From Periplaneta americana (lineage: Eukaryota; Arthropoda; Insecta; Blattodea; Blattidae), in the NCBI RefSeq assembly GCF_040183065.1, contig NC_091117.1, positions 110,301,001 through 110,365,000 of the forward strand: a stretch of 64,000 nt of DNA, in the 5' to 3' direction. A program made the translations under genes and the position numbers. Of the stretch, positions 1,337-60,294 are shown in pieces. Positions within the stretch are counted from its first letter, which is position 1; each line of letters starts with the position of its first letter. Under the pieces are notes generated by a model that saw only the letters and a list, made by a program, of their open reading frames with translations, did not search any database and was not told the origin of the DNA.

Positions 1337-2502
1337 AATTTTATTATGTTCAAGTATCAATTATTTGGTATTAACTAACTTTTCATTGTGTGGTTATTTT
1401 TTTAGTTTATTTATTTACCTCAGTAATTTACGTAGAAGTGTTTTGTGAACTGTGTACCTTAGTAAATATAACCAAACATTTATTTTCATCTTCAACGATG
1501 TACCTTTGTATCATTAATATAGACTATTAACAGAATGATTGGTAAATAAATTGCTGTCTCTTCACTAATTTTCTAGATAATATTTGTCTTAGATTGCAGT
1601 ATTTTTTACAATACTGCAATGCAGTATGTGTTGTAATTTATTAAAATAATAAAAATAATTAATAAAATAAACCAGAATTAATTTCACTTACTGGTTTATT
1701 ATGTGCAATTTCAGATACGTCTAATTTGCTAAGCATATCAGTATCTTCAACAATTAATATTAATATTTAGCAAATTGGGCGTATCTCTAATTGTCCATAA
1801 AAATGTAAGCTAATTAGCCTAAAAATTGTATTCTCTATATTTTGAATATATTTCAATAATGAATAAGCTGAAAATTCCAATAAATTAACTATAAAAAAAT
1901 AGGCGCGCTTTCATCATTCACTAAATCCTCAATACTGGAAAATATTCAAGTTTTGAAATACGGCCTTTTGGCTTGGGTGGGCAGTATGGTCCCTTTTATT
2001 TAAGGTATGGATGCCATCAGTTTGGGGTAGTATGGAGTTGGTAAGACTTGATACAATCGTCTTGCATTCTACTCAGGCTGATGAGCTAAGTCCCGAATAA
2101 TACATACATCTTGCCTTAGCGGGAGCGCAACGATGCAACCTATAACATATTATCATTGCTCCTTAGAGGCTACTGTCCGATCCAACTCACAATAGAACTT
2201 AAGGGATAAAAATAAAATAAATCTTATTAATGCAACAGACGCGGCTTGAATTGTGTTTCATATTGTATTGTGTCACCAGTGCATTATATGAATATGGGTC
2301 ATTCATAATAAAGCATAAATTCCTACGTTGTGTGGTCTAGACCTTCTATATTTCACGTAAGTCGTCCTGATTCCAGTTTCGATCAAACCTAGTTTTTTTT
2401 CATTTGAAAAGTGTCTTTGGTGATACTGGTAGTAGACAAGTACTGTACGTAGTTAGAGCTTTCTCTGAGTTCTCCTTTTACACCACCATTAAATACATAT
2501 TA
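1337..2502. other. AT-rich stretch without recognisable gene
   Basis: No supported coding sequence. It contains two small inverted repeats, one near 1595-1619 (TTGCAGTATT / AATACTGCAA) and a larger one at 1714-1787 listed separately. Confidence 0.6.
1714..1787. repeat. Imperfect 20-bp inverted repeat (hairpin)
   Basis: AGATACGTCTAATTTGCTAA is followed about 33 bp later by its near-perfect reverse complement (18 of 20 positions). It could be a tiny foldback remnant. I see no target duplication. Confidence 0.5.
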
Positions 2503-2504
2503 TA

Positions 2505-3999
2505 CAGGGTGTATCAAAAATACGGGGCATAATTTCAGGTATGTATTTCCCACATGTAGACAATCAAAATAGTTCTTTACAACATGTGTCCAGAAATGCT
2601 TCATTTCCGAGTTATGGCTTTCACAACATTGAAATTCACCGGAACGTTTTTCTTTCCGCAGGTCGTTGTCATTACAGAAGATGTTCAAAATGTCCACCTC
2701 CTGCTTGAATACAGACCTCACATCGATGTCTCATTGACCTGCGAACACAATCCCAAACTCCAGGAGTATTGCGTATGTCCTGAGAACATGCCAAATATCG
2801 ATTCCGAAGGGATTCCAAATCAGGCACCGGAGACGAATAAACCAATGATTTTAAATGGCCCCACAAGTAGAAATCGAGAGTGTTCAGATCAGGTGAGCGT
2901 GGAGGCCAAGCAATTGGGCCACCTCTACCTATCCATCGATCAGGAAACCTTCGATCCAAGTACCGGCGAGCCGTACGACTGAAGTGTGCAGGAGCGCCAT
3001 CATGCAAGAAGTGAATGTGTTGACGATTGATCAGTGGAGTGTCTTCTAAAACATGAGGTATGGTGTTTTCCGGGAAGTTTATGTACGCCTGCCCCGTAAG
3101 TCTGTTTACAAGTACATGGGGTCCAACTAATCGATCACCAATGATACCGGCCCACATGTTGAAAGAGAACCGCACCTGGTGATGAGATGGAACAGTTGCA
3201 CGTGGGTTTTCATACGCCCATACATGCTGATTGTGGAAATCTGTTATGCCATCTCGTGTGAACTGTGCTTCATCTGTAAATAATACTAAGGCAGGAAAGT
3301 TCGGATTTACACCACACTGCTGCAAGAACCACTGACAGAACCTAACTCGTGCAGGGTAATCTGCTAGTGACAGGGCCTGTACACGTTGCAAATGATAAGG
3401 ATGCAATTGATACTTTTTCAACAGTCTCCAGACAGTCGTATGAGGAACATTGACTTGCAACGCTACCCTTCGTGTGCTGATAGAAGGAGTCATGTTCACA
3501 GCCTCCAGAATCTCCTCCTGTACTTCTGGAGTTGTAGATCTTGGTCGTCCCCTTCCCAAACCAGGAGAGTTAAATTTTCCATACTCGCACAGACGGTAAT
3601 GGAGACGTACAAATGTCTTCCGATCTGGACATTGTCGCTGTGGGTACCTCTCCTGGTATGGTACAAACGACGAGCCAGCGCAGCATTGCCGTCCGCCTTA
3701 CTGTACATGAAGTGTATCTCTGCCAGCTCTTGATTTGAATACATGTCGCACAGTCTAACGCCTACACAACACTGAATGTAACCTTCGTCTCGGAATGAAC
3801 TGTCAGAGTGCCCTCTTAATGTCTCCTTTGACGGCAACGACCTGCGGAAAGAAAAACGTTCAAGTGAATTTCAATGTTGTGAAGGCCATAACTCGGAAAT
3901 GAAGCATTTCCGGACACATGTTGTAATGAACTATTTTGATTGTCTACATGTGGGAAATACATACCCTGAAATTATGCCTCGTATTTTTTAAACACCCTG
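2505..3999 (-). mobile_element. Tc1/mariner-like element, copy 1 (DUF4817-type transposase)
   Basis: A 1,495-bp element flanked by TA on both sides (2503-2504 and 4000-4001), as expected for the IS630/Tc1/mariner superfamily. The ends start CAGGGTG. The terminal inverted repeats are about 165 bp (2505-2669 and 3835-3999), which is long for mariner. The transposase lies on the minus strand and is frameshifted. Two close relatives lie at 53501-54963 and 60295-61558. Confidence 0.93.
2672..3837 (-). pseudogene. Mariner-like transposase, frameshifted (copy 1)
   Basis: This would encode a DDD cut-and-paste transposase. Read on the minus strand, the first part (3837 to about 3665) carries the DUF4817-type helix-turn-helix (YSNQELAEIHFMY..., NAALARRLY). 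A 4-bp insertion near 3655-3665 relative to copy 3 shifts the frame. The second part (3559-2672) carries a second helix-turn-helix (TTVWRLLKKYQL) and the catalytic motifs LFTDEAQF, HDGAPAH and SPDLN. The C-terminus AGGGHFEHLL, which copy 3 lacks, is present. Apart from the frameshift the sequence stays close to copy 3 (for example SPDLNT here and SPDLNP there), so inactivation looks fairly recent. No ATG precedes the conserved N-terminal part; all three copies have TTG at that position. Confidence 0.9.
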
Positions 4000-5687
4000 T
4001 ATATACGACATAAAGAGTTGAATGTACAATTTTTAACAAATTTGGAAATATGAATGTTTTTCGTCATATTGTTTCGCATGGAATTACCCTATTGTTATGA
4101 ACGGTATAAAATTTATGTTTGTGCAAATTATAATCAAGGCCATCGTATTGAATTTTTATTTTTCTTAGAAAGGATACTTTGACTATCGTAATTTATTCTC
4201 TGATTTCAGATATAGGGTGATTCAAACCTCTGCGACCAACTTTGAGGGGTGATAGATCTAACAATAAGGAACACTTTTTGTTAAACAACCTATGTCTTTT
4301 GATGCGTCATTTCGAAGTTACCGTAGAAAATGTTTTTGCGCGGGCGTACGACAATGTATGCGAATGTGTGCACCCCTGTTTATTTGCTTGTTTGTTGAGA
4401 TGTTTGTAAGAGACGAGAAGGGTTGTTGTTTGTTTACTTTTAATGTTCAATACCTTTTCCTTTCAGTTCAGTGTAATCATCAATAATGTCTACACAGTCT
4501 TCCACCAATGCGCCGGGGACGAAGAGACACATCGTCTCGAAGGCGTTGATAAAGTTGAACAAACATTGTGTGGTGAGGGTGATTTCTGTTTTGAAACTGT
4601 TGTTGGTACATGTGCAGAGCACTTCTTCCGTTTCTGCGAGCCTCCCCATAAAACATTACCGGTCGGCTAACTCGGGAAAAGTGTAGACATCCATTCTCAA
4701 TTGATGATTAGACTGAACTGAAAGGAAAAGGTATTGAACATTAAACGTAAACAAACAACAACAATAACCCTTCTGGTCTCTTACAAACATCTCAACAAAC
4801 AAACAGGGGAGCACACATACGCATACATTGAAGTACGACTGCGCAAAACACTTTCAACAGTAACTTCGAAACGACGCACAGTGGGGCCAATTACAGGAAA
4901 AGCTGGCAAAAAGTCCAAAAATCAAATCACGGAACTATTTTAAATACCTATTGTTCAAGAAAGTTGAAGACCACCTGCAACATTTATATCGATAAGGAAA
5001 TGGCATAAGAAGTAACCTACTCCACACTGTGGAGGTCATAACTTACACGTTACACTGACGACTCATTGAGTAGCTGATAAGCGGAAAGAGCGCTGTGTTT
5101 TGAATTTGATATCATTTTGTTGTGTGTTCGTCTAATGCAGTCATGTCAATTGATGCCCATAGGAGCAAGCGCGCGCTTTAGAGCTAAGGAGAGCCTGAGC
5201 GCTTTACAGCGGAAAGGAAAGAGACAGACGAAAGAACTAGTATATGGCGTTTGGTCGAGCTATATTCAGGGATGGCCAGTACTGATCCAATAGATAAAAC
5301 GAAAAGAACTTATTAAAACTGTATCCATGGTAATTTTTAGATCTGTCTGAGAAGTTTAAGTGAATTATAAGAATGAAAGTTTTAATTGTAATGCTCATTT
5401 TTCACAAGTTTGATTTTTTTTATTCAAGAGAAATAATTCCTAAATTTTTTAAATAGAAAAGTGAACTTTTCAGATATAGGCCTATTTATTTAGTAGCCTT
5501 ACAGAATGTTTTCGTAAATCTAATAAACCGTACATACGCATTACTGAAGATAGTGTATTGAAAATTTTGAAAATATTCTCATGGAAATTGTTTGTAAGGA
5601 AATTAATTAACAAAGCAACTACTGTTACATCATAAGCAAAAGATACATGCTTATGTGTTGTAAAAATGTCAGCTCTATAGCTTTAGC

Positions 5688-5962
5688 ATATTTCGAGAAA
5701 ATAATTTAATATTCTGATGATAGGAAGTTGCTCACCAATATCACCTTAAAAGCATAATGCGATAAGAGTTTTGTTATGGAATATTAGTTACACTTAAAAC
5801 ATATACAGCACCTAGGTAACTTTGCTTTGTACTGAAATATTGTTTTGATTAGTTTATTGATTACTTTTATAAGGCTAAAGGTACCATCAATATCAATTCC
5901 AACTTATGTCATACTCAGTCTCTTTTTTTGGGAATATCACTTTCTTTATGAATGATATGTTT
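5688..5962 (+). repeat. 275-bp module shared with the giant palindrome
   Basis: Starts ATTTCGAGAAAATAATTTAA and runs through CACCTAGGTAAC and GTTTATTGATTAC. It closely matches the inner parts of both arms of the 8.5-19.4 kb element (reverse complement at about 11740-12010; direct at about 12712-12960). Confidence 0.85.
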
Positions 5963-8343: not shown

Positions 8344-8533
8344 CAACAAACCGTGAAGTTTAGAAACATAAAAACAGTAACGTGTTTCTATTCAGCTGTT
8401 ATATGATAATTACGCTGCTTATGATTACTATCTGTGTTGCAGTGCCGAAGTATTGCAACGATACAAAATTGCGGCTTTCTTCCAAATTGCCTTTACAGAT
8501 GATGGTGCATTAGATTAGTGATTATAGAATATG
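8344..8533. other. Short spacer between two elements
   Basis: Unique-looking sequence ending in the 6-bp target duplication AATATG (8528-8533) of the next element. Confidence 0.5.
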
Positions 8534-8592
8534 AGTAGTACAGAAATGACGGCCATACCACCAAGAAAAGTGGTGCGAGGTGGGTGCGAGGG

Positions 8593-8800
8593 TGACGTCA
8601 CAGGTAGGCGTGGCGAGTGACGTCACAAGTGGGCGTGGCAAGTGACGTCATAGTGGGCGTAGCAAGTGACGTCATGGGCGTGGCTAAAATATGACGTCAT
8701 GGAGGGGGTGGAGGGCTTAAATTATGACGTAGGAAAGGGGCGTAACTTAAATTACGTCATAAATGGCAATCTAAGAGTTTAAGGATAAAGTGTGACGTCA
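8593..8800. promoter_or_regulatory. Periodic array of TGACGTCA palindromes, left tip
   Basis: TGACGTCA occurs at 8593, 8618, 8643, 8667 and 8692, spaced 24-25 bp, and again at 8793 and 9063. Between them is a repeated GGGCGTGGC-type box. TGACGTCA is the CREB/ATF consensus and GGGCGTGG resembles Sp1/KLF sites. Whether this is a promoter or a transposase-binding array is unknown. Confidence 0.6.
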
Positions 8801-9790
8801 TGCACACGTGCTGGTATGTAATTGAAGTTGTGGCATGACATGTTCATACAAGTTTGGGTGGGGTGAAATACACAAGTTCATATATGTTTATCTCCTCAAT
8901 GCAGATGTAATGTCTGCTATGTGTGCAAATATTATGCTGATTCACATCCGGTGATTGTTCTTGCAGCGTCTTATGTTATACAAGGGTGGAGATAGGGAGT
9001 GACTGGTGGTAGGGTGGAGGTAGGGAGTGACTGGCGGTAGGGTGGAGGTAGGGGGTTTTATGTGACGTCAGAAGTGGGCGTGGTGAACGTCACATGTGGA
9101 TTTTCACGAAGGGACATGACTTAAAAGTGTGACGACATAAATGGCTATCTCACAAGTTCATACATGTTTGAACATCCCATCTGCTACGTGTGCAAATATT
9201 ATGCAAGGTCACATATGGCGAGTGTGTGAATTGCTGAGTAAGAATTCACTTGTAAATTAAACACATACATTCTTCTTCTTACTATTATTAAGATTCTAAT
9301 GTAATGGTAATTTAATTGATGGGGAATGGAAAATGTGGGGGGGGGTATTGGAAATTCGCAAGTATAAATTGGAATGGAGGGCATAAATGGTTGTACTTTA
9401 AGCCAATTGTTGATAAAAAAAATTCATATAGTACACTTGTAAATTAAATTTGTAATTGAAGTTCAAATAAAATGCAAGTTGTTAATTCACATCCGGCGAT
9501 TGTTCTCGCAGCGTCTTATGATACGCAAATATTGCATAAGCGCTTTCTGCTGTGTGCAAATATTATGCAAAGTTGCTAATTTTACTGGTTGTACTTTAAG
9601 CCAATTCCTGAGTAATTGATAAAAAATTTTAAGATTCTAATGTACTGGTAATTGAATTGATAAATAGTAATGGGAAATGGAAATTGGAATGATGGAAATA
9701 TTGATGGCGTAAATGGTTGTACTTTAAGCCAATTGGTGAGTAATTGATAAAAAAATAATGTAGCACATTTGTAAATTAAACACATACAAT

Positions 9791-9825
9791 CTTCTTCTTC
9801 TTCTTCTTCTTCTTCTTCTTCTTCT
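9791..9825 (+). repeat. (TTC)n microsatellite
   Basis: About 12 TTC units; the mirrored (GAA)n lies at 17828-17858 in the right arm. Confidence 0.9.
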
Positions 9826-11446
9826 CATCATCATTATTATTATTCGTCATAAAGAAGATTAAAGTGTGACGTTATAAATTTGTAATTGAAGTTAGAAATG
9901 GGCGAGGGCTGTCTATAATTTGAAATACATACGGCGTAACTTAAAGTGTGGTGTTATAAATTTGTAATTCAAGTTGGAAATGGGGGGGGGAATTTGATAA
10001 AATTCTAATGTAATAGTAATTTAATTGATAAATAGTAATGGGGAAGGGAAATTCGCAAGTGTTAATTGAAATTGGAATGGGGGAATTATTAATGGCGTAA
10101 ATGGTTGTACTTTAAGCCAATTGATACAAAAAATAATCTAGCTCACTTGTAAATGAAACACATACATTCTTCTCATATTATTATTATTCCAATGTAATAT
10201 TTTTTGAAGTAAAATTGAGTGGTTTGTTTAGCGTATTTAATTTAATCCATACATTATTACCAACATTAAATTCATCAGCATGTGACATTATTATTTCGTA
10301 ATACAGCAATTGTAGTAGATAAATCAATGTAGATGTATATGTTGTGCAATGTTATTACATATGCATAAGTGTGTAAATATTATGCAAGCTTGCTGAATCA
10401 CTTCCGGCGACGATGCAATTGCTGAGTAATCATAAAAACATGTTTTTGAAGCACCTGGAACGTGTTATATTACACAAATATTGCATGATGCAAATAATAT
10501 GCAAGCTGTTAATTGACATCCGGCGATTGTTCTCGCAGCGTCTTATGTTACACAAATATTGTATTGATTTCAAGTGAATAATCACTATCTGCTATGTGTG
10601 CAAATATTATGCAAGTTTTCTAATTTTACATCCGGCGGTGAAATTGCTGAGTGATGATAAAAAATATACACAAATATTGCATGATGCAAATAATATGCAA
10701 GCTGTTAATTCATATCCGCCGATTGTTCTTGTAGCGTTTTTGTTACACAAATATTGTATTGCCTAATAGCTATCTGCTATGTGTGCATTATTAAATTGAA
10801 TATTAATTGCTACTTTGTGCTGTATTTCACAGAATGTTTACTTTAACCATAAATACCATTTTTGACCTAAACTACTTCTGCTCTGAACGTCTCAAATAAT
10901 ATTGTATGATAGTTCCAATATATTGCACCTTTTCAATAATTACTTAAGTTGGTGCTCTCTATTCGTATGTGATATTTGATTAAAAAACATTCGCAGAACA
11001 TGACATTGGCGTAACTTAAAGCGTGACGTTATAAATTTGTAACTGTAGTTGGAAATGAGGGATGGGGTTTATAATTTGAAATACACACGGCGTAACTTAA
11101 AGTATGTCGTCATTCACAAGTACAGGTATGTAACTGAAGTAGGGGCGTAACGTAATAATTTGAATTACATATGTTCATACAAGTTTGTATAGTTGAAATA
11201 CACAAGTTCACACATGTTTGAGATTTCACCTACACAATGATGTGATTACACGTGCAAGTATTATGCAAGGTCACATCCGGTGATGCAATTGCTGAGTAAT
11301 AATAAAAACATATTTTTGAAGCACCTGCAACGTCATATATTACACAAGTATTGCATGATGCAAATAATATGCAAGCTGTTAATTCACATCCGGCGATTGT
11401 TTTCGCAACGTCTTATGTTACACAAATATTGTATTGATTACATGTG

Positions 11447-11479
<33 letters not shown>

Positions 11480-11562
11480 AATGTAATACATTTTGAGCGG
11501 ATTGTTTAGTGTATTTAATTTAAGATTTACATTATTACCCACATTAAATTCATCAGAATGAG

Positions 11563-11563
11563 A

Positions 11564-11623
<60 letters not shown>
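11563..11623 (+). repeat. (ATT)n microsatellite
   Basis: About 20 ATT units, with a shorter run at 11449-11477; mirrored by (AAT)n at 13079-13139 and 13228-13275. Confidence 0.9.
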
Positions 11624-11625
<2 letters not shown>

Positions 11626-12180
11626 CAATTTAATACATTTTGAAGTAATATTTATTGGTTTAATTTTAAGCCATATATTATTAGCGAAAGTATGATTTAG
11701 AGCAGTTCGTAACATTCACTTAAATTCCAGAGTAGTATAATATTATACTGGATTAAGTGGACCATAAAGAAAGTGAAATTCTAAAGAAAGAGATTAAGTA
11801 TTACATGATAAGTTGGAATTTACATTGTTGGTATCTTTTGCCTTACAAAATTAATCAATAAACTAATAAAAACAATATTACAGTACAAAGCAAAGTCACC
11901 TAGGTGCTGTATCTGTTTTAATTGTAACTATATATTAGACAACAAAACTCTTATCACGTTATGCTTAGGTGATATTTGTGAGAAACTTCCTATCATCAGA
12001 ATATTAAATTATTCTCTCGAAATCTGCTGAATCATATTCGATATCTGCTATGTGATGCAAGCCTGCATAAACATCCCGTGATTGTTTGACGACCACCTGC
12101 AATGTATTACATTACACAAATACTGCATGCACATAATAGCTATCTACTATTTTCAGCAAATATTGTGCTAGCTTGCAATA

Positions 12181-12383
12181 CAGCATGTCGTTGCAATAAC
12201 GCAACAGCATGTCGTTGCAATAACGCAACAGCATGTCGTTGCAATAACGCAACAGCATGACGTTGCAATAACGCAACAGCATGTCGTTGCAATAACGCAA
12301 CAGCATGACGTAGCAATAACGCAACAGCATGTCGTTGCAATAACGCAACAGCATGTCGTTGCAATAACGCAACAGCACGTCGT
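12181..12383. repeat. 24-bp minisatellite in the palindrome loop
   Basis: About 8.5 copies of a 24-bp unit beginning CAGCATGTCGTTGCAATAAC, with only GTCG/GACG-type variants. All three minus-strand frames stay open because the period is a multiple of three. I regard these frames as non-coding. Confidence 0.95.
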
Positions 12384-12633
12384 AAGCGTGATTATGAAGA
12401 ATGTTCGAATTGTAATATATGTTTTTTTTGTAAATAGTATTGCACTATAATTTTTTTCCGTATTAACCATCCATTTCCATCTCACATAATCAAAGGGTTG
12501 GGTTCGTTTAGAGTTCCAAATGGGGAATGGGTTATTAACCTATAACACTCTCCTTTCAAATATTAGTAATCCTTTTCCAATATTAAGAATTGGTATATAG
12601 GTTTTCAAATATTAATAATCCTTAAGACATAAT

Positions 12634-12711
12634 CGTTACAACTTGTCGAAAATCGTAATCTTGCGACATATACGTTACAACTTGTCGAAAATCGTAATCT
12701 TGCGACATATA
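12634..12711 (+). repeat. Two tandem 39-bp units
   Basis: CGTTACAACTTGTCGAAAAT... is repeated with period 39 immediately before the right arm begins. Confidence 0.85.
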
Positions 12712-13078
12712 GGAAGTTTCTCACAAATATCACCTTAAAAGCATAATGTGATAAGAGATTTGTTGTGTAATATTAGTTACACTTAAAACAGATACAGTAC
12801 CTAGGTAACTTTGCTTTGTACTGTAATATTGTTTTTATTAGTTTATTGATTACTTTTGTAAGGCTAAAGACACCATCAATATAAATTCCAACTTATCATG
12901 TCATACTCAATCTCTTTCTTTATAATTTCACTTTTTTTATGATCCACTTAATACAGTATAATATTAAACTACTCCGGAATTTAAGGGAATATTACGAACT
13001 GCTCTAAATCATACTTTCGCTAATTATATATGACTTCAAATAAAACCAACAAATATTACTTCCAAATGTATTAAATTG

Positions 13079-13140
<62 letters not shown>

Positions 13141-13225
13141 TCACATTCTGATGAATTTAATTCGGGTAATAATCTACGGCTTAAATTAAATACACTAAAC
13201 AATCCACTCAAAATGTATTACATTG

Positions 13226-13276
<51 letters not shown>

Positions 13277-13782
13277 TAATGCACATGTAATCAATACAAT
13301 GTTTGTGTAACATAAGACGTTGCGAAAACAATCGCCGGATGTGAATTAACAGCTTGCATATTATTTGCATCATGCAATATTTGTGTAATATAACACGTTG
13401 CAGGTGCTTCAAAAACATGTTTTTATTATTACTCAGCAATTGCATCACCGGATGTGAGCTTGCATAATATTTGCACGTGTAATCACATCATTGTGTAGGT
13501 GAAATCTCAAACATGCATGAACTTGTGTCTTTCAACTATACAAACTTGTAAGAACATATGTAATTCAAATTAATACGTTAAGCCCCAACTTCAATTACAT
13601 ACCTGCACTTGTGAATGACGTCACACTTTAAGTTACGCCGTGTGTATTTCAATTTATTTCCCCCATCCCCTATTTCCAACTTCAGTTACAAATTTATAAC
13701 GTCACACTTTAAGTTTGCCAATGCCATGTTCTGCGATTGTTTTTAATCAAATATCACGTACGAATAGAGAGCACCAACTTAA

Positions 13783-16700
13783 TGTATGTATGCACGTTTA
13801 AAATGGGGTGTCTGGTCAAAATTTCCCATTTTTCGTTTTTTTCATAGCATGACAGCCACATTCTTCTAGTTTCGAAATCTGTATCATTTATGCGCATATT
13901 CCGCCCAGAAGTGCCCTATTCGGAAGTTTAATGGGACGGGCGCGCACGTGATTCACTAGCAGGAGGCGTGGCGCGAGCTCTGTGTCCAGCGTCAATTTCT
14001 TAATTTATTTTTGGTTTAAATCAAGCTTAAATAACGCGGTTTTTGAGTTCTTCACGTAGTACACACATTCACCAACAGATGGTAGGGCCTACACTGTTTT
14101 GGTTCGTGTCAACAACAAAGATGTCAGCTTCCATAATTTCAAAGCGTGTGTTTGTTTGTGTGAACTTTGGCTGCTAATTTCAGTGTGAAAATGGGTTCTA
14201 GTAGTCGAAGTGGAAGAAAAAGGAAGAGAAGTTTTCATTGTAACAGGTTTACTAAGAAAACTGAAACTGTAAATAGTAATACTACTGTACATATTAGCGA
14301 TAGTACTGTAAATAATAGTTCTAGTGTAGGCCTAAATAATAGTAATGTAAGTGAAGTCTGTGGTTCTTCCTACTCTAAAATTTCAAGTTGTGACATAGAT
14401 AATAGTAATGTTAGTGATAATTATAATGTGATTTTCGACTCAGACTGCCTTCAGAATTTAATATCAGTGTTAGCTTGCCCCTGTTGTTTCACATGTGGGT
14501 CTGTGACAGTGAATATTTCTGAACGACAAAGATTTGGTTGGGAACTACAGCATTTCCTAACTTGTAGACATTGTGGCTACAAATCAAAATTCTTCCCAAC
14601 ACCAAAAAGGCAGGGGAAAGTTCCAGAAATAAACAGAAGACTGGTTTATGCCATGAGATCTGTAGGCTGTGGAGATAGTGAGGCTGTTAGATTATCGTCT
14701 ATCATGCATTTACCTCCTCCTCCCAATGCAACACCATATCATGAACATACTAAAGCTCTAGCTACTGCCACCACAGAACTAGCAACTGAAAGCATGAAAT
14801 CTGCTGCTGAGGAAGTGAGAAAATTAAAAGGTATGGAGTGTGGTGTATCTGTCGATGGGACTTGGCAACGACGTGGCCATTCCTCTCTGTCAGGTGCTGT
14901 GGCAGCAATTTCTGTTGACAGTGGTAAAGTGGTAGATGTTGAAGTCATATCAAGAAGCTGCGTGGGATGTAAACTTCACTCCCATGAAGGTAAAACATCG
15001 CCAACTTATCTTGCATGGAAAGCAGACCACAACAGGAACTGTGCCAAAAATTACAGTGGTTCAACACCCAATATGGAAACAGAAGGGGCCAAAAAATTTT
15101 TTCTCCGCTCTGAGGAAGGGAGAGGGCTCCAGTATGTGGATTTTTATGGTGATGGGGACTCAAAAAGTTATAGGGCAGTGGTAGAAACAAATCCATACAA
15201 TGGAAAAACTATAAACAAATTAGAGTGCGTTGGACACTATCAGAAGAGATTAGGGACGGTTCTTCGAAAACTAGCCAAAGAGAAAAAGTTGGGAGGGAAG
15301 GGGAAACTTACGAGCAGCCTCATCGATAAGTTGCAAAATTACTTTGGCATAGCATTGCGAGGAAATGCCACTAGTGTGCAAGCTATGTCCAAAGCAATAT
15401 GGGCAACATGTTTTCATCTGTCAGCAAATCAGAACCAGCCTTTCCATAGCAAATGTCCGGAGGGTGTTGACAGCTGGTGTTCTTTCAATCGCGCCAAAGC
15501 AAAAAATGAATTGCACTTGTATAAGTATAAGGCAGGGTTGCCCATTGAAATTATGAGAGCAATCAAGCCTGTTTATGAAAGGCTGACAGATCAGAAAATG
15601 TTGTCCAAATGTCTCCATGGCCTGACTCAGAATTGTAACGAATCGTTCAATGGCATGATATGGCGAAGGTGTCCAAAAGATACATATGTAGGCCTCGATA
15701 CCCTGAGATTAGGAGTAATGGACGCCGTTAGCCATTTCAACTATGGCAACAAAACACAGGTTAATATTCTCAGGAAATTTAATACTAGTCCTGGGAAATA
15801 TTCTGTTGCTGGTGTAGCTAAGATTGACATTGTGAGAATAAGAAAGTGCAAGATTCAAAGTACACCGGAGCAGAAGAAACGGCGGAGAAGACTCATGGCA
15901 GCGAAGAAAACTCATGAAGACAAGAAACTTCATGAAGAAGGTACTACATATGCAGCAGGAGGATTCTGAAACCTGGCAGGCAGCATGGGGCATGGGTATG
16001 TTGAAATTTCACAAATTTTTATTTTTTTTTAATCTGCTACAATGTTTCTCTAATTAATTGAAAAATATAAACCAAAAATTTAGATATAACTTAATTTTTA
16101 AGAAAATTGAAGTTTAAAGTAAATAACGATGCTATAATTTGCAAAACGTTACCTACTGATAAAATAAGTGATCACATACTAAGTATAAACTTTCTACCTA
16201 CACTGTTTAACAACGAAAAGCCGCCGCTTTCAGAATTTCAAAACACAAAGACAACCTCAAACATTGAAATAATAGTTCCATTTATACATGGAATTAAACC
16301 TAATGAAATGGTGAATGCTCTGGTATAAGAATCTTTAACATATATCTTTAAATAAAAGATGTATGTTCGCCCAAACTTTCATCTTCGTTTATTACAAAAA
16401 AAAAAAATCTCGAAATTTTTCAGCATTCAAAACAATATAAAATGCACTAAATATAGAAATACAGAAGTCATTTATATACCAAGTTAAAGCTCATGAAATG
16501 AGGAATGTTGTAAGCTATGTAGTTTTTGTAATATTATTTGAAAAAATAGAGCAAAACATTTTTTTCTGAATATTTTGAAAATAAAAATCTTATTTTTCAG
16601 TGAATAAATTATAATTCTTGAACTAAGCTGACTAAACTAATTATCGTTGTTAAACACAATCAGGGGATGAAAACTAACATTTCTGTGCAAAAAGGAACTT

Positions 16701-16902
16701 GCTAGTGTTATTTGCTGCGGGATGAGAGCGTTTCAAAAATTTTATAATTTTTAATGATTATTATTTTTTTTAATTTTCAAAAAACTTAAATATATATTTT
16801 TTAATTGGATTGGTTTAGTTGAAGAACACTAATTGTGTACAAAAAATTTCATAATTTTTGGTTGGAAAAAGTGCATTTCAGGACGAAACGTGGATACATA
16901 CC
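13783..16902 (+). mobile_element. Kolobok-type DNA transposon with exact TTAA duplication
   Basis: A 3,120-bp element inserted in the palindrome's right arm. TTAA flanks it at 13779-13782 and 16903-16906, and the uninterrupted site is visible in the opposite arm. The ends are inverted repeats: GTATGTATGCACGTTT on the left and GTATGTATCCACGTTT on the right after reversal. It holds one open transposase gene with about 400 bp of leader and about 930 bp of trailer. TTAA specificity with a D-D-CxxH-E transposase fits Kolobok better than MULE. PiggyBac also uses TTAA but its transposase is different. Confidence 0.9.
14191..15969 (+). CDS. Kolobok-type (Mutator-like-domain) transposase, intact
   Basis: A 592-aa open reading frame without stops or frameshifts. 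I chose ATG 14191 because it has AAA upstream and begins MGSSSRSGRKRKR, a basic segment that may be nuclear localising. The frame extends 24 bp upstream but without an ATG. Residues 30-85 are Ser/Asn-rich and low complexity. A zinc-ribbon-like set of cysteines follows (C96, C98/C99, C102 and C125, C128). The catalytic core shows D222 in VSVDGTWQRRG, D321 or D323 in YGDGDSKS, a CxxH motif at C346-H349 and E484 in QNCNESFNG. This D-D-CxxH-E arrangement is known from MULE, hAT, P and Kolobok transposases. The C-terminus is basic (KKRRRR) and ends in a GGF tail. It would bind the element's ends and cut and rejoin them in the nucleus at TTAA. The leader (13800-14190) is GC-richer than the surroundings. 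Whether it is expressed cannot be seen. Confidence 0.92.
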   Translation: MGSSSRSGRKRKRSFHCNRFTKKTETVNSNTTVHISDSTVNNSSSVGLNNSNVSEVCGSSYSKISSCDIDNSNVSDNYNVIFDSDCLQNLISVLACPCCFTCGSVTVNISERQRFGWELQHFLTCRHCGYKSKFFPTPKRQGKVPEINRRLVYAMRSVGCGDSEAVRLSSIMHLPPPPNATPYHEHTKALATATTELATESMKSAAEEVRKLKGMECGVSVDGTWQRRGHSSLSGAVAAISVDSGKVVDVEVISRSCVGCKLHSHEGKTSPTYLAWKADHNRNCAKNYSGSTPNMETEGAKKFFLRSEEGRGLQYVDFYGDGDSKSYRAVVETNPYNGKTINKLECVGHYQKRLGTVLRKLAKEKKLGGKGKLTSSLIDKLQNYFGIALRGNATSVQAMSKAIWATCFHLSANQNQPFHSKCPEGVDSWCSFNRAKAKNELHLYKYKAGLPIEIMRAIKPVYERLTDQKMLSKCLHGLTQNCNESFNGMIWRRCPKDTYVGLDTLRLGVMDAVSHFNYGNKTQVNILRKFNTSPGKYSVAGVAKIDIVRIRKCKIQSTPEQKKRRRRLMAAKKTHEDKKLHEEGTTYAAGGF

Positions 16903-19104
16903 TTAAGTAATTATTGAAATGTGCAATATATTGGACCTATCATACAATATTATTTGAGACGTTCAGAGCAGAAGTAGTGTAGGTCAAAAATGGTATTGAT
17001 GGTTGAAGTAAACATTCTGTAAAATACTGCACAAAGTAGCAATTAATATTCAATTTAATAATGCACACATAGCAGATAGCTATTAGGCAATACAATATTT
17101 GTGTAACAAAAGACGCTGCAAGGACAATCGGCGGATATGAATTAACAGCTTGCATATTATTTGCATCGTGCAATATTTGTGTAATAAAACACGTTCCAGG
17201 TGCTTCTAAAACATGTTTTTATCATTACTCAGCAATTGCATCGTCGCCGGAGGTGATTCAGCAAGCTTGCATAATAGTTGCAAACTTATGCATATGTAAT
17301 AACATTACACAAGATATACATCTACATTGATTTATCTGCTACAAGTACTGTATTACGAAATAATAATGTCACATGCTGATGAATTTAATGTTGGTAATAA
17401 TGTATGGCTTAAATTAAATACGCTAATCGAACCACTCAATTTTACTTCAAAATGTATTGCATTGGAATAATAATAATATGAGAAGAATATATGTGTTTAA
17501 TTTACAAGTGTGCTAGATTATTTTTTTTTATCAATTGGCTTAAAGTACAACCATTTACGGCATGAATAATTCCCCCATTTCAATTTCAATTAACACTTGC
17601 GAATTTCCCTTCCCCATTACTATTTATCAATTAAATTACTATTACATTAGAATTTTATCAAATTACCCTCCCCCATTTCTAACTTCAATTACAAATTTGT
17701 AACATCACACTTTAAGTTACGTCGTATGTATTTCAAATTATAAACAGCCCTCGCCCATTTTCAACTTCAATTACAAATTTATAACGTCACACTTTAATCT
17801 TCTTTATGACGAATAATAATAATGATGAGAAGAAGAAGAAGAAGAAGAAGAAGAAGAATGTATGAGTTTAATTTACAAATGTGCTAGGTCATTTTTTTAT
17901 CAATTACTCACCAATTGGCTTAAAGTACAACCATTTACGCCATCAATAATTCCTCCATTCCAATTTCCATTTCCCATTACTATTTATCAATTCAATTACC
18001 AGTACATTAGAATCTTAATATTTTTTATCAATTACTCAGCAATTGGCTTAAAGTACAACGAGTAAAATTAGCAACTTTGCATAATATTTGCACACAGCAG
18101 AAAGCGCTTATACAATATTTGCGTATCATAAGACGCTGCGAGAACAATCGCCGGATGTGAATTAACAGCTTGCAAATTATTTGCATCATGGAATATATGT
18201 GTAATATGACACGTTGCAGGTGCTTCAAAAACATGCTTTTATCATTACTCAGCAATTTCATCGCCGGATGTGAGCTTGCATAATATTTTCACTTGTAATC
18301 ACATCATTGTGTAGATGAAATTTCATACATTTATGAACTTGTGTATTTCAACTATACAAACTTGTATGAACATATGTAATTCAAATTATTACATATATAT
18401 TTTTTTTTTCATCAAATTATTACGTTACGCCCCAACTTCAATTACATACCTGCACTTGTGAATGACGTCACACTTTAAGTTACGCCGTGTGTATTTCAAA
18501 ATATTACCCCCTCCCCAATTTACAACTTCAGTTACAAATTTATAACGTCACAGTTTAAGTTACGCCGTATGTATTTCAAATTATTATCCCGCTCCCCCAT
18601 TTCCAACTTCAGCTATATCCTGTTTAATTTACAAGTGTGCTAGATTAATTTTTTATCGGAAAGTACAACCATTTATGTCCCACATTCCAATATCCAACAC
18701 CCAACCCATTCCCCAATCAATTAAATTACCATTACATTAGAATCTTAAGAAAAAGAATGTATGTGTTTAAGTGTGATAGATTAATTCTTGGACACTCGCC
18801 GGATGTCAGTTTGCAAAATACTTGCATACATAGCAGATAGCAGTGCGAGAACAATAGCCGGATATGAATCAGCATAATATTTGCACACATAGCAGATAGC
18901 GATTGTGGGATTTTCAAACATGTATGAACTTGTGTCTTTCACCCCCCCCTTACAATTAACTCGAGAACAATCGCGGGATATGAATCAGCACAATATTTGC
19001 ACACCTAGCAGACATTACATCTGCATTGAGGAGATAAACATGTATGAACTTGCAAACTTGTATGAACATGTCATGCCACAACTTCAATTACATACCTGCA
19101 CGTG

Positions 19105-19315
19105 TGCATGAGGTCACACTTTAACCTTGAACTCTTAGATTGCCATTCATGACGTAATGTAAGTTACGCCCCTTTCCTACGTCATAATTTAAGCCCCCAC
19201 ACCCTCCGTGATGTCTTACTTTAGCCACGCCCATGACGTCTCTTGCCACGCCCACTATGACGTCACTTGCCAAGCCCTCTTGTGACGTCACTTGCCACGC
19301 CCACCTGTGACGTCA
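19105..19315. promoter_or_regulatory. Periodic array of TGACGTCA palindromes, right tip
   Basis: Mirror of the left-tip array: TGACGTCA at 19258, 19283 and 19308 with exact 25-bp spacing, separated by GCCACGCCC boxes. A degenerate site (ATGACGTCTC) lies near 19232. Confidence 0.6.
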
Positions 19316-19380
19316 TCCTCGCACCCGCCTCGCACCACTTTTGTTGGTGGTATGGCCGTCATTTCTATACTACTAATATG

Positions 19381-21779: not shown

Positions 21780-24012
21780 AAATACAAATACATTAAAAAT
21801 TCATAAAAATTATTTACAAGAAAATATGTACAATACAGCTATGCAGCCAATAACGTGATGACCCTGAAACAGAGAAATAAAATTATTAGTGCATTAGTAG
21901 ACTTATGTCTGTCTGTCGAGTCATGTGGTTGTTAATGTTCAATTTGATTTTCGTCTTGTACGTTGCCGTTCCAAGCTAGTGGGTGGAGTACGCTCTTAGG
22001 TCTTTTGTGTTTATCTAAAGCAGGGTTGTAGTTACCGAGGGTAGAAATTAATGGGTTGTTGCTGCTGTACGATTTGGTGTACGTGCAGAAGGCTTGATTT
22101 GAAATTATATTCTTGAGTTGTAAAAATTTCGAGTGCTTTATGAATCAATCTAACAGGTGTTACTCTAAGAAGTCCTGTAATGAATCTTAAACGTTTGTTT
22201 TGGAAAACCTGTAATTTTTTAAGAACTGTAATAGGTGTATGTCCCCAAGCAGCACAAGCATATAATATTACTGACCTAATTAATGTTCTATACAAAGTCA
22301 AGGCTGTATGTGTGTTTAAACGTCTGCTTTTATTTAGAATTGGGTACAGCTCCACTATTCTAGAATTGGCAAGTCTGAGTTTCTGTAGTACATGTTTGGA
22401 AAAAGTGAGCCTTCTGTCTATTGTTACTCCGAGATACTTAACTGAAGTTTTCCACTCGATTTGTGATCCATTTACAGCTAATTTTGTGTGATGTATTTCC
22501 GGTCTATTGAATATATTTCTTTTGCTAAATAAGATGGCTTGTGTTTTTGATATATTTAATTTAATTCTCCATCTGAGGAGCCATGGTTCAATGTCACGTA
22601 GGTGACCTTGAAGTCTGTTAATGGCAACAGTTCGCTTCCATGATGCCGTGAGAAATGCCGAATCGTCAGCGTATAGCGCTAAAATAGTATTATTGAAATT
22701 TTGATTAAAGGGTAGGTCATTAATATAGATTTGAAAAAGTATCGGAACCAGAATGCTGCCCTGAGGCACTCCAGCGTTGATATCTCGCGACGTGGAGTAC
22801 ACGCCGTTCTGTTTAACCTGGAACGTTCTGCCCCGAATATAATTATCCAACAATTTAACTAGACGGTCATTTAAATTATTATTAATTAATTAATAAATAT
22901 ATATCAAGCCCGCATGCCAAACTCTGTCAAAGGCTTGTGTATAATCTAGGAATATAACCGTTACTGTTCGGTTTAGATTAAAGGCAGTAGTAATTAATTC
23001 CATCGTGCGAAACAATTGCTGTGTGCACGAATGACCTGTGTGGAATCCAAACTGTTCATTTCGGATTAGATCATTTTGTCCGAGTTCAGATTTCAATCTT
23101 CTTTGTATGATCTTTTCCGCAACTTTACCTAAAATGTTTAGTAAACTGATAGGGAGATAATTTCGTGGCTTAGGAATTTGAATAATGTGCGAGTGTTTCC
23201 AGATGGTAGGAAAATAGTCTATCTGAAAGATAGCATTTATAATATTTGTAAGTAATTTGAATGCTTTCGGTGATAGCTGTTTCAGTACTTCAGCTTGTAT
23301 GCCATCGGGGCCAGGAGCTTTTTATTTGGCAGGTGTCTAACTTGCACTTGAACACTAGCAGGACGGACTTGTGGTGCGTCCTTGTTGAGGTCCTTATTAA
23401 GTAAGTACGTAGTTGTGTCTTGCAGTATTTTGTCATGTACATGTCTGTCATACAAGTCGCCATGTGGATGGAAGGAATTCTCGAGGACTTCCGCGAAAAT
23501 TGTTGTTTTCTCCTCTGGATTATTATAGGTTGTCCCATTGTGCTGGATGGGAGGGATGTCACTATATGGCTTAGTGAAGAATTTTGTAATTTTCCACACT
23601 TCGCTCATATTGTCGGTATCTAAATTACTAACTTTTTGAGTCCAGGCTTGGATGATCTGATCGTTTATTTTCTGAGAAATTTCCCTTTTTAAACGATTCA
23701 TCCGTGGTCTTAGGCGAGGGTCCCGCGTTCTTTGCCACACACGCCGAGAGTCGTTTCTTTCCCTACTTAATTTTAAAGTATCCTTTGGAAGCTCTAATTT
23801 CCCAGGAGTAACAGTTTTTGTAGGAATAACCGACAAAGATTCCTGTACAGCGTTCCTTAGCATTTTAGCAGCATCTTCGACCGCCAAAGGTGACGTTGGA
23901 ACCAAGTCATTGTGGTAATTCGGCCGTGGTGGGAATATAATGGTGTAGCAGACGGTTGACTCAAACTCGTTTTCTACTGCGCATGTCGTCACTTGGGAAG
24001 CAGCAGCGGCGC
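21780..24012 (-). mobile_element. 5'-truncated jockey-type non-LTR retrotransposon
   Basis: A minus-strand LINE fragment starting in the linker between endonuclease and RT and ending in an AT-rich 3' region below 22031. The 3' boundary is approximate because I see no clear poly(A). ORF1 and the endonuclease are absent, as is typical of incomplete reverse transcription. Confidence 0.75.
22032..23992 (-). pseudogene. Jockey-clade reverse transcriptase, broken
   Basis: This encodes the RT part of ORF2, which would copy the element's RNA at a nicked target. In order on the minus strand: linker (23992-23300, ending KKLLAPMAYK after a frameshift); RT fingers with PRNYLPISLLNILGKVAEK (about 23190-23100); palm motif A in FLDYTQAFDRVWHAGL (about 22940); an AT-rich ATTAATTAATTAATAA disruption (22868-22900); then a 273-aa open segment with DINAGVPQGSILVPILF, LYADDSAFL (catalytic YADD), VKYLGVTIDRRL and a C-terminal thumb. 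At least one frameshift, the AT-rich interruption and 5' truncation make it inactive. Confidence 0.85.
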
Positions 24013-24154
24013 GCTAATTCGCGCCGCAGTGCTCGAGGAACAGAACAAACAGCTGTTGAGTGTACGTGCACGGTGTTAATTCTTTGTTTATATATATTAT
24101 ATTGAATGTTATTCTTGTATCAGTAATGCCATAAATGTGACACATGCTATTAGT

Positions 24155-31902: not shown

Positions 31903-34843
31903 AAGGCTCATTCACAATGAAAATTAAACATAACGTAAGCGTTAATTTAAGAATGTAAACGTTGCGGTAAAATCAAGATGTCATATCATCATTCACGATG
32001 GGAACATAAACCTAACAGCAAACATACTTGGTAACCATGGAAACATAACAACGACGCCATTTCCTCATATTCTGTCGTATACTTCAGCGCTCAACGATTG
32101 TGTTCTGTTTGCAAATCACGTAAGCATAAGCACGACCGACTTGATGATTGCTTTGCTTCTTCCTTACCGGCCTTGACAATTCATGTTGATCCCTGTGTTA
32201 AAGCTGTAACGAGAAAATGTGAAATTTTCGCCAGATGGCATTAGCTGCCAAGGTTCGCTGAGGAATTTGTGTATAGTTTCTTTTGCGATTATATTAAAAT
32301 ATTGTGCTTCTTTCTACTGGTAAGTGAGTTTATTGTGATGTGATTCAAAATGACGAATTGTTGTGTACCATTGAGTACTTCGAATAGAAAAAAGAGTGGA
32401 GGAACAATATCGTTCCACGAATTTCCGAGTGATAGAGAAAGATGCGAAAAATGGCTTAAAGTGATTTCACGCCAAGACTTCGTTCCAAACAGCAACTCCC
32501 CATCTTCAGTCGTTTGTAGTTTACATTTCAAGGAAGAAGATTATTCTAATAATGGAAAATTTAGACGATTAAAACCAAATGCTGTGCCAACAATATTCCA
32601 TCATTATCCTACGTATAAAGTGACAAATATCAAAAGACCAAGATTAGCCTACTAAAACTGATCTCCCTCCACCAAAGAAACGCAAATCTTTTAGTAATAT
32701 TGGTTTTTCACTATTTGAACAAGATGTTCCGAGTGGCTCAACATTAGTTAGTGACATTTCCTTCTTCCCAGTTGAAAATGACCATAAAGCCACGCAAACA
32801 GACGCTGTCAACATTGACGAGCTAAAAAGAAATATTAAAGATTGCGTGTGAAAATTACACGACTTAATCGGGTGTTACAAGAGAAGCAAGATGAACTAAC
32901 GAAAACAACCGAAAAACTCCAACTAATTGAAAGAGATCCGTTACATAAGGAACTGGAAAATGTAAAAAAAGAGGCAGATGAAGACAGTATTCATGCAAAA
33001 TTTATCCTAGATCAGCTGCTTAATGATCGAAAGATAATACCAAGGTGGAATTGTGAGACAATCAGAGAATGCATAATACTGCAATACATATCTCCTACAA
33101 GTTATTCCCATATACGATCAAGAGGTTTTTAAACTGCCTTCTAAGAGAACACTCACGAGATATTCTGGCCCTACTGATTGCTCGTCTGGTGTCACTCCTG
33201 TGATTAAAGAAAGGTTGATCTTAGAGGCAAAAACCTCACTGTAGTTGAGCGGTTTTCATCACTTATTGTAGATGAGGCTGCAATCAACCCCAAGATAATA
33301 TACGATCGCAACCTTGATAATTTTTTTGGCTATAAGGAAACAACAGAAGCACAAAGAAATGAGGATGAAATACTTAATGTTCCCAAGAAAGAAGTAGTGG
33401 CTAATCGAGTCTTGTGTTTTGTTTTAAGGGGGCTCTCAACCAGCTACCGTATACCATGTGCATTTTTCTTCACAAAATAATTATCAGGGCAAGAGTTACA
33501 TATACTAACATTGCAAGTGATTAGTGAAGTCAAGAAATGTGGTTTTATAGTTATTAGAATTGTTTCTGACAACCATAAAAGCAATACTACAATGATGAAG
33601 CATCTTTCAGGTAGTTCATTGAAACCCGTGACCACACACCCTTGTGATGGAAACAGAAAGTTATTTCTAAGTTTTGACCAGTACCACATATTGAAAAACC
33701 CAATTCCTGGAACGTGAAATGTCTGATGGTACTGGAACAATCTCAGGGAAATATGTGAAATTGTTACACAAACTCCAAAATGATGATACGGTGAAATCTG
33801 TCAGATATCTCACGAAAAAACACGTTGAGCCTATTGCATTTGAAAAAATGAACATTCGAAGGGCAAAAGAAATATTTTCTCCATGTGTAATTGCTGCTAT
33901 TAGAACACTGAAAGAAAATGCAAGCTCACACTCTGAAGCCCACAAATTCAAATATTCTGATGCGACATTGACTTTTATGGAAAATATCAACAAGTGGTTC
34001 ACAATGCATGATATTAGCAATACACATTATCATGTGGAAAGTAGAAATCATGATAAGCAACAGTTCTTCTCTTTGGATGATTATCGTCTAGACTGGCTAG
34101 AAAATTATTTCCTTTCTTATCTCCATACAACGAAGTGTGCAAGTAGCACACGTCAAAAAGATTTCCTAACTAACGAGACATATGAAGCTATCACGTTGAC
34201 AACAAAATCAACTGTTCTCTGCATTAAATATCTTAGAAAATGGGTACCATTATGTTTTTATAAAACTTAGTACAAGTTATGGTAAATATTTACCCTAAGT
34301 GATTATTTATAAACATCGCAGTTTAGGCTAGGGGTGTTACTCAGCGAATCAACTACAAAATTACACCTCTGTCATCATGTTACTTAAACTGAACAAGTTC
34401 CTATGTGTTATCTTCCCTGCTTTTAAACTCACGCTTTTACCATACTTAACAGAACTAAACATAATAACAATTATTATTTTCTTATTTATTATTTATAAGT
34501 GTTACTATTACTCTTTAATCATTTATTTTAATTCATATTGAGTATTTCTTCTGTGGACACCAGAGCTTGGCAGACAGCGCCTCGTGGTGGAAATGAGAAA
34601 TTATCCAATTTCAAGAAAACATTACTATTGTCAAGGCCGTATACAAAAAAGCGAAGGGACATCAAGTCGGCCGTGGCATAAGCATGAAAGTTTGAAGTTT
34701 GCAAACTTTCATGTCAACGTCTTACGGCAATGTTAATGTCAGTGTTTATGTGAATCATTGTGAATGATCCCATTTGGTAGCCTGGACGCAAACTTCTGTG
34801 TTTATGTTATAGCTATGTTTAATTTTCATTGTGAATAGGCCTT
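31903..34843 (+). mobile_element. P-element/THAP9-like transposon relic
   Basis: The ends are inverted repeats: AAGGCTCATTCACAATGAAA on the left and, reversed, AAGGCCTATTCACAATGAAA on the right, continuing through ATTAAACATA. A subterminal ATCATTCAC(G/A)ATG motif and ACATAAAC recur near both ends. Length is about 2.9 kb. A P-type transposase gene with a THAP domain fills the interior. I could not identify a clean 8-bp target duplication. Confidence 0.85.
32350..34270 (+). pseudogene. P-element (THAP9-type) transposase, broken
   Basis: Ordered pieces of a P-family transposase. ATG 32350 starts a THAP domain with KWLKVISRQDF, VVCSLHF (C-x2-H) and LKPNAVPTIF (AVPT box). The start reads CCVPLSTS, so the second cysteine of the first zinc pair is missing. 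A coiled-coil-like region (32842-33000) follows, then PRWNCETIRECIILQY. At 33240-33480 is FSSLIVDEAAINPKIIYD, the first acidic residue of the RNase H-like core. At 33511-33717 are VSDNHKSNTTMMKHL and SFDQYHILKN. At 33719-34270 is the insertion-domain region with ISGKYVKLLHKLQND, KKHVEPIAFEKM and TNETYEAITLTTKST. Frameshifts at about 32655-32842, 33132, 33480 and 33717 and a short C-terminus make it inactive. Confidence 0.88.
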
Positions 34844-34860
34844 AAGTTGCGTCATCATAT

Positions 34861-35092
34861 AACAGTTCAGAGCAGAAGTGGTGTAAGTCAAAATTGGGTG
34901 ATGAGATTTAAAGTAAAAATTCTGTAAAATACAGCGCAAAGTAGCAATTAATATGTTCTTCGTGCTATCCACTGACTACTAATAGTTTAAATAAATTGAA
35001 TATAATTCCTACATGGCGCTGTATTTTACAGAATGTTTACTTTAACCCTCATTACCCATTTTTGACTTACACCACTTCTGCTCTCAACCGCT
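34861..35092. mobile_element. 232-bp MITE with about 85-bp inverted repeats
   Basis: Arms contain AGAGCAGAAGTGGTGTAAGT and TTCTGTAAAATACAGCGC in inverted orientation. CATAT directly flanks both sides (34856-34860 and 35093-35097). A related half-copy lies in each arm of the giant palindrome (about 10825-10905 and 16965-17035). Confidence 0.85.
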
Positions 35093-35097
35093 CATAT

Positions 35098-41165: not shown

Positions 41166-41537
41166 ATGCTTTAAACCTTAAAAAATGTAACTAATTACAT
41201 TGCGCCTCGAAAGTGCTAGCTATTAAACAAAAATAACTACTTCAAGTAAGAAATTGCTGGGTACAGTTTCATTTTGGAAGAGGGAAAAGAAAAATTAATA
41301 AAATATATACAACCTCGACAGCAAGCTATGTTGGCGTAGATTATGTTCAGTACTTCTAGGAGTCTCCGAAGTTTACCCCTACAGTAAACTCTCGATTAAC
41401 TAAAATGTCTATCCAGGACGATCCATAGTGAAATCCATTTCGTCAATAATGTTTTTAATGTGCTGTGGACTAATTATTAAAACCATGTTTTTACTTCAAA
41501 TTTTCAAAATCATCCTACATAGTATTCAAAACTGCAT

Positions 41538-53213: not shown

Positions 53214-53500
53214 TAATGAGTATTATATGTTCCAGTTACAATTCCGTGTTAATATTTATTAAAAAGGTAGATAATTGGGAGATTAAAAGCAAAATATTTA
53301 TCTTATAGATTTGCTTCTTAAACAGAAACAATTGACAGTTGCTTAGCTTAACTATGCTAATTATCTTTAAACAGAAGACCTTGTCGATGCACGAACCGTG
53401 AGTGTCGTAAACTCCGTTGTGAAAGCGAGCCTCAAACCAAAGCTACGCGCATGAAAAAGGAAGACGGCGTTCTCGCTTCTGAATAGGCTACATTTCTATA

Positions 53501-60172: not shown

Positions 60173-60294
60173 AAAATTTAGAACTGGAAACAAATCGTCT
60201 TCTTCCCTGCATATTGTCACAGCTCGCCAATGTCATTTTCTCTATTGCTGTCTTCTTCAACATGTATGACGGAACAGAGTAATATCACAGTATA

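Follow-up and report, generated by a model that had tools for sequence, protein, structure and literature searches.

A 64,000-nucleotide window of the Periplaneta americana genome (C1:110301001-110365000 of a 3.23-Gb assembly) contained a large palindromic element, which is considered here together with its relatives among the Polintons (Mavericks) of the same genome. An earlier note on this DNA had described a 7.7-kb palindrome with arms of about 3.5 kb, a 0.7-kb loop, inverted termini starting AGTAGTA and an exact 6-bp flanking repeat AATATG, and all of these were recovered (Table 1). The span 8534-19374 comprised 10,841 bp, of which 7,717 bp remained as the element proper after leaving out a 3,124-bp nested insert (13783-16906, one TTAA counted), and the two parts of the right arm added up to 3,542 bp. 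The termini were 5'-AGTAGT//ACTACT-3' with AATATG on either side, and the ends read AGTAGTACAGAAATGACGG (left) and AGTAGTATAGAAATGACGG (right, reverse-complemented).

Both the target-site duplication and the terminal motif, the latter an exact match to (AGT)2//(ACT)2, were those of Polintons. They agreed with vertebrate Mavericks, for which these are the commonest ends, with 6-bp duplications and inverted repeats of 46-1,447 bp (PMC8097293, in excerpt). Within the window, 312 AGTAGT..ACTACT pairs lay 1-30 kb apart, and a perfect 6-bp direct repeat was observed at this element only. Two 6-mers of the window agree with a chance of 0.00046, which by simple product gives about 0.14 expected among the 312 pairs, and 1 of 100 Markov-randomised windows held any such pair with a perfect 6-bp direct repeat. 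The flanking repeat could also be read as 8 bp (AATATGAG), the element itself then starting with AG; this reading was rejected, because only the 6-bp one keeps both ends symmetric and because the other copies described below show 6 bp.

The arms aligned in four colinear blocks, 8534-8960 with 18965-19374 (93.4% identical), 9464-10542 with 17112-18183 (94.9%), 10738-10944 with 16905-17111 (92.8%) and 10948-11993 with 12709-13778 (93.6%), with a rearranged stretch between the first two (8961-9463 against 18184-18964). The pooled identity was 94.0%, with a Kimura two-parameter distance of 0.063. Large palindromes can also arise by local inverted duplication of a chromosome or as assembly artefacts, and the earlier note had named the former as an outcome that would overturn its reading. 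Either origin is hardly credible here: target-site repeats stand outside both ends, the inverted similarity runs just 5 bases past them, the arms differ by 6% with insertions and deletions, and the nested insert is present in one arm only.

The description of the arms as mosaics of recurring submodules was likewise borne out. When both arms were read from the end towards the loop, all module matches had one orientation, with 357 same-strand match rows (reciprocal and arm-to-arm rows counted) and 0 on the opposite strand; this favours direct duplication over random nested insertion as the way in which the arms grew. The period-25 tandem repeats, which contain the motifs TGACGTCA and GGGCGTGG, formed the outermost modules. 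Outside the element, the innermost arm sequence adjoining the loop recurred in diverged form (87-90%) at 5682-5951, and the halves of a small palindromic repeat at 34853-35101 resembled the arm module 10792-10900 (84%).

No convincing protein family was found in the six frames of the left arm and loop, where the weak matches were DUF3741 (0.0099) and phrog_15773 (0.0024). The best match among the 10 of 25 listed element frames scanned was 0.012, the right arm not being scanned frame by frame. None of the Polinton core genes (protein-primed polymerase, integrase, ATPase, protease, capsid proteins) was convincingly present in the six frames of the left arm and loop, and the element was therefore classed as a gene-less derivative and not as a Polinton itself. 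Scans with Rfam and for tRNAs gave no lead, the left arm matched no phage record, and the terminal pattern had 0 matches in viral and bacterial contigs.

The transposase frame lies in the nested transposon, which is a later insertion into the right arm. This frame is uninterrupted and matched PF20700 at 1.6e-71, and the ends of the insert, TGTATGTATGCACG and GGTATGTATCCACG, were alike in 12 of 14 bases. The insert resembles Kolobok in its TTAA duplication and transposase domain and differs in that PF20700 is labelled Mutator-like. Its termini, TG/GG, satisfy the published RR..YY rule for Kolobok at one end only (PMC9587614, in excerpt). PF20700 frames, either nested or cargo, were also noted inside two copies of the family described below (L043:1217-3100 and L046:1813-3264), and a search for TTAA-bounded ends around these two genes returned top-scoring pairs that fell in the arms. 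The window's PF20700 gene was rejected as the palindrome's own transposase: it sits between TTAA repeats, is 33-38% identical to the frames in L043 and L046, and has no DNA similarity to any fetched copy.

Table 1. Features of the palindromic element and its nested insert (window positions).
Feature	Position	Strand	Remarks
Left target-site duplication	8528-8533	.	AATATG, 6 bp
Left arm	8534-11993	+	3,460 bp, beginning AGTAGTACAGAAATGACGG
Tandem repeats, period 25	8592-8674	+	Consensus GTGACGTCACAGTGGGCGTGGCAA; mirror array 19234-19315
Loop	11994-12708	.	715 bp, without inverted counterpart
24-bp tandem repeat in loop	12180-12383	+	8.5 copies; unit also central in the coding Polinton on C3 (L056/L057)
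Right arm, inner part	12709-13782	-	1,074 bp
Nested DNA transposon	13783-16902, second TTAA 16903-16906	+	First TTAA 13779-13782; divides the right arm
Open reading frame of nested transposon	14191-15966	+	592 aa from first Met; PF20700 Mutator-like transposase; outside the palindrome
Right arm, outer part	16907-19374	-	2,468 bp, end TACTACT
Right target-site duplication	19375-19380	.	AATATG, 6 bp

The element proved to be one of a family. A 29-base terminal pattern, allowing at most 3 mismatches, gave 54 matches in the genome, and a looser one at the same threshold gave 61 ends, the reversed control giving 0 in each case. Of these 61 ends, 9 were single and the others made up 26 pairs facing inward at distances of 4.1-16.3 kb; the 61 began with AGTAGA in 50 cases and with AGTAGT in 8. 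Target duplications were checked in 23 of the 26 pairs, the window included (C1:101083081, C2:138412129 and C8:108410633 were left out), and were perfect over 6 bp in 20 (19 different sequences) and carried one mismatch in 3. An element without any other copy in the genome, the second outcome that the earlier note had held against its own proposal, was thus not what was found. The alternative pattern AATATGAGTAGTA was unspecific, with 206 matches in the genome against 179 for the control; among eight of the 206 that were cut out, only the window resembled the element, save for a 55-base match in L001.

Complete sequences were fetched for 17 paired copies, and ends only for five more. In the 17, the aligned arms measured 0.5-5.2 kb, and in 7 of them they extended over 80% or more of the half-length. 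Arm divergence over the outer 2 kb, pooled for the 13 copies with arms of at least 1.2 kb (L041, L043, L046 and L051 omitted; some inner bins of L053, L050 and L058 misaligned), was 0.7-1.1%, substitutions only, with no trend along the arms. At about 1% difference these 13 copies are probably younger than the window copy. The arms of L041 and L046 were far more diverged (88.5% and 82.8% identity). When each end was compared with all others, 29 of 36 were closest to their own mate (L027 and L031, both unpaired, being uninformative), so the two ends of one copy seem to be renewed together.

The nature of the family was indicated by a coding copy at C3:94045903-94057597 (L056/L057), with inverted repeats of 2,323 bp, 99.9% identical, and the target duplication TCTGGT. 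A Pfam scan, which covered five of its 27 listed frames, identified a double jelly-roll capsid protein (PF21738, 6.2e-96) and an rve integrase frame (1.5e-11), the integrase region being broken across several frames; a Pox_A32 match indicative of the ATPase was weak (0.001, below the curated cut-off), and further frames were present. As predicted from these matches, the gene combination is that of a Polinton. The modules of its inverted repeats matched the window arms, and the 24-bp tandem repeat of the window loop recurred in the centre of this copy. Furthermore, capsid matches were observed just inside two single family ends (C13:116419503 at 1.8 kb and C17:99102858 at 2.1 kb). The window element has its termini, the modules of its arms and a target duplication of 6 bp in common with this Polinton, which codes for capsid and integrase, and it can be described as a non-autonomous Polinton derivative because these genes lie between inverted repeats built of the same modules. 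The earlier note had arrived at a large non-autonomous foldback element, had named a Polinton-type integrase as a candidate mobiliser on end structure alone, and had suggested looking for a coding relative with the same end sequence; the paired copies with their 6-bp repeats and this capsid- and integrase-coding relative give substance to each of these points. The note had further raised the possibility of a very large hairpin or a long double-stranded RNA.

Foldback (FB), Tetris and Galileo likewise have gene-less copies in which long inverted arms with internal repeats make up nearly the whole element, and most foldbacks, Tetris among them, have been assigned to Mutator (PMC4079207, in excerpt). 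It is nevertheless very improbable that the window element is simply a Mutator- or P-superfamily foldback with a coincidental 6-bp duplication. Such foldbacks belong to another enzyme lineage and differ in duplication length, which is 8-10 bp in Tetris (PMC4079207, in excerpt) and 7 bp in Galileo, a P element (PMC3573991, in excerpt), against 6 bp in 20 of 23 pairs here. In addition, the coding relative has capsid and integrase genes, and the window's PF20700 gene belongs to the nested TTAA insert and is as distant from those of L043 and L046 as stated above. Three identities were rejected in this connection. Mutator-like elements make target duplications of 8-11 bp and would have a relative with a MULE transposase, which fits neither the 20 of 23 pairs with 6 bp nor the rve integrase of the coding relative, and a P-type foldback like Galileo does not agree with 6-bp instead of 7-bp duplications. 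IS3EU/GingerRoot elements combine 6-bp duplications with TA..TA termini (PMC10045372); the duplication fits, but the window termini are AG..CT.

A genome-wide search for the Polinton polymerase scored 91 of 115 candidates; 54 PF03175 matches were found in the genome, none within 24 Mb of the capsid gene on C3, the nearest to any family end lying 130 kb away. Among 102 capsid matches, 36 near-full-length ones entered a comparison of capsid type with polymerase. A polymerase lay within 25 kb in 13 of the 18 matches ending at position 315-316 of the model and in 0 of the 18 ending at 313-314, the C3 type (with the C1 palindrome counted twice), the split by match end being a rough proxy picked after the list was seen. 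This suggests a Polinton lineage, with the C3-type capsid, that may lack a polymerase of its own.

A polymerase-bearing Polinton of 16.8 kb was delimited at C7:79367658-79384443, with the ends AGTAGTAAGGAAATGA and the target duplication TACATA, both located by sliding the boundary by at most 12 bases. Its ends carried the exact (AGT)2//(ACT)2-type motif, and 14 of its 16 terminal bases matched those of the window and 12-14 those of other family ends, a likeness consistent with common end-recognition enzymes. Beyond the termini, the end regions of this Polinton showed no match to the window arm and resembled the C3 inverted repeat over short stretches only. The duplication TACATA was also found at L040 and L051, so that it is common to three different insertions (the C7 Polinton being L080/L081); those of L040 and L051 lie in CATA-type repeats, a possible target preference.

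The palindromic form was not confined to gene-less copies. When the capsid list was inspected by eye, opposite-facing pairs of matches close together were observed on C1, C4, C15 and C11, all outward (the C11 pair, 129090560/129097112, being short partial matches); in the polymerase list, opposite-facing pairs were observed on C14 and C8, both inward (the latter at 125785234/125788009). Judged by eye and with no formal test, these orientations are those expected if palindromes keep a natural end at both sides. Three capsid pairs (C1, C4, C15) and one polymerase pair (C14) were analysed in detail.

Over 4.1 kb the copy at C4:129659258-129667487 matched L056 on its capsid side (94.4% identity); it then switched strand and returned to the same end. 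Its arms were 99.6% identical over 2.66 kb, AGTGGC stood on both sides, and the switch point showed TCTTGG in the copy and in both stretches of L056, which is a relative and not the parent (by eye). At C1:115596188-115606447 both arms matched the capsid frame and those of 206 aa and 118 aa, with some matches broken in two; the arms were 97.3% identical, the ends were AGTAGT//ACTACT and GTCAGC stood on both sides. Both copies thus show what a copy-back event leaves, the same end at both sides and one internal strand switch. On C14 the polymerase-side end was present at both sides, with 100% identity over 351 bases close to them; the sequence stopped about 51 bases short of the left terminus, which lies near C14:82851029. 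The palindrome at C15:103631600-103638300 (L071, also L076 and L077) had 99.4% identical arms, continuing beyond the fetched sequence, and its capsid is a fragment from another Polinton lineage (47-54% identical).

Since the target duplications lie outside both ends, the C4 and C1 molecules were most likely palindromic already when they integrated. The simplest route to this form would be a template switch in the course of strand-displacement replication, recombination between two free molecules being another possible one. In some relatives, the palindrome thus goes back to a strand switch that doubled one end of the element ahead of its integration. That palindromes also occur among coding Polintons, as copy-back duplications, goes beyond what the earlier note had described. 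The two ends of the window element are likewise of one kind, and it has no coding sequence on which a switch could be mapped.

On this evidence, the window element is probably a non-autonomous palindromic Polinton (Maverick) derivative whose form would be explained by copy-back. Linear Polinton DNA would be replicated by protein-primed strand displacement; the polymerase would switch to its own displaced or nascent strand and copy back to the starting end, and the product would have two identical origins and two integrase sites. Such a palindrome, we assume, would rely in trans on other Polintons for the enzymes that replicate and integrate it. The window element would have lost its genes, its arms would be expanded terminal-repeat modules, and a remnant of the Polinton's central 24-bp repeats would be kept in the loop; the TTAA transposon would have entered the right arm afterwards. 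The end repeats of vertebrate Mavericks have been tied to a jumping-back step of protein-primed replication (PMC8097293, in excerpt).

Several observations weigh against this account. With the closest polymerase 130 kb from the family ends, help in trans has to be assumed. The published AGTAGT motif is relaxed in most of the family, and palindromy is common but not universal. The window copy was exceptional in the mate comparison, its ends being 90% identical and its mate ranking 4th, and near-identical ends shared between copies (L043/L048, L051/L054) indicate that some palindromes may descend from one master. No coding remnant was found in the window element, and a stepwise elongation of inverted repeats would look similar, so that for this copy a copy-back origin, as opposed to elongation, is drawn by analogy from its relatives.

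An elongation of this kind, by unequal module exchange and by gene conversion from one arm to the other, followed by the spread of one or a few master palindromes by Polinton enzymes and involving no copy-back, is a less likely origin that nevertheless deserves serious weight. It would fit the arm modules, all of them direct repeats, the variation of arm length among the fetched copies and the near-identical ends of some of them, and it has a precedent in Galileo, whose arms grow by internal tandem repeats and recruited internal sequence (PMC3573991, in excerpt). Against it stand C4 and C1, in which a whole block of coding arm is doubled around a single strand switch, C14, which has the polymerase-side end on either side, and the C15 palindrome with a capsid of another lineage.

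Compared with known systems, the window element shares with Polintons/Mavericks the 6-bp duplication, AGT-type repeated terminal trinucleotides, long inverted repeats, and a coding relative with the same kind of ends and modules; it differs in being gene-less and about 90% palindromic. Its arms of 3.5 kb exceed the inverted repeats of intact vertebrate Mavericks cited above, and its 7.7 kb fall short of the 12.7-24.6 kb of those elements (PMC8097293, in excerpt). The C4 and C1 relatives, which go inward, switch strand and return to give two identical ends, resemble copy-back (snap-back) defective viral genomes, from which they differ in being integrated in a chromosome with target duplications. 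Copy-back defective genomes are known mainly from RNA viruses, and inverted end duplications have also been described for adenoviruses. No description of palindromic or copy-back Polintons was found in the titles and abstract openings of the searched literature, whose scope left out most subscription papers, and absence from print is not implied.

Additionally, other mobile elements were recognised in the window. One transposon was present in three copies, 95-98% alike and in both orientations (2501-4003, 53497-54967 and 60291-61555), with DDE_3 and HTH_Tnp_Tc3_2 matches near the cut-offs in the last, the only copy scanned. Retrotransposon coding regions lay at 41523-44812 (strand +; endonuclease, reverse transcriptase and RNase H) and at 22032-24013 (strand -; broken reverse transcriptase), and a frame at 33695-34270 with a TNP-like GTP-binding insertion domain (PF21788, 4e-12) is probably a P-element-type fragment.

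To our knowledge, it is unsettled whether animal Polintons still replicate extrachromosomally as linear protein-primed DNA. A palindrome with two identical Polinton ends and a target duplication is most simply understood as made before integration, and each such copy would then record a replication error of free Polinton DNA, with a readable junction. Whether the Polintons of this genome recurrently yield copy-back defective genomes that integrate like whole elements, so that a polymerase-less lineage together with its gene-less palindromes would be a two-step parasite of polymerase-bearing Polintons, is an evenly balanced question. If they do, the integrated palindromes would preserve, like fossils, traces of protein-primed Polinton replication outside the chromosomes of an animal, and would be a counterpart to defective interfering genomes. 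The set suggests a further route by which foldback elements may arise, and its large natural hairpins are possible sources of small RNAs against Polintons.

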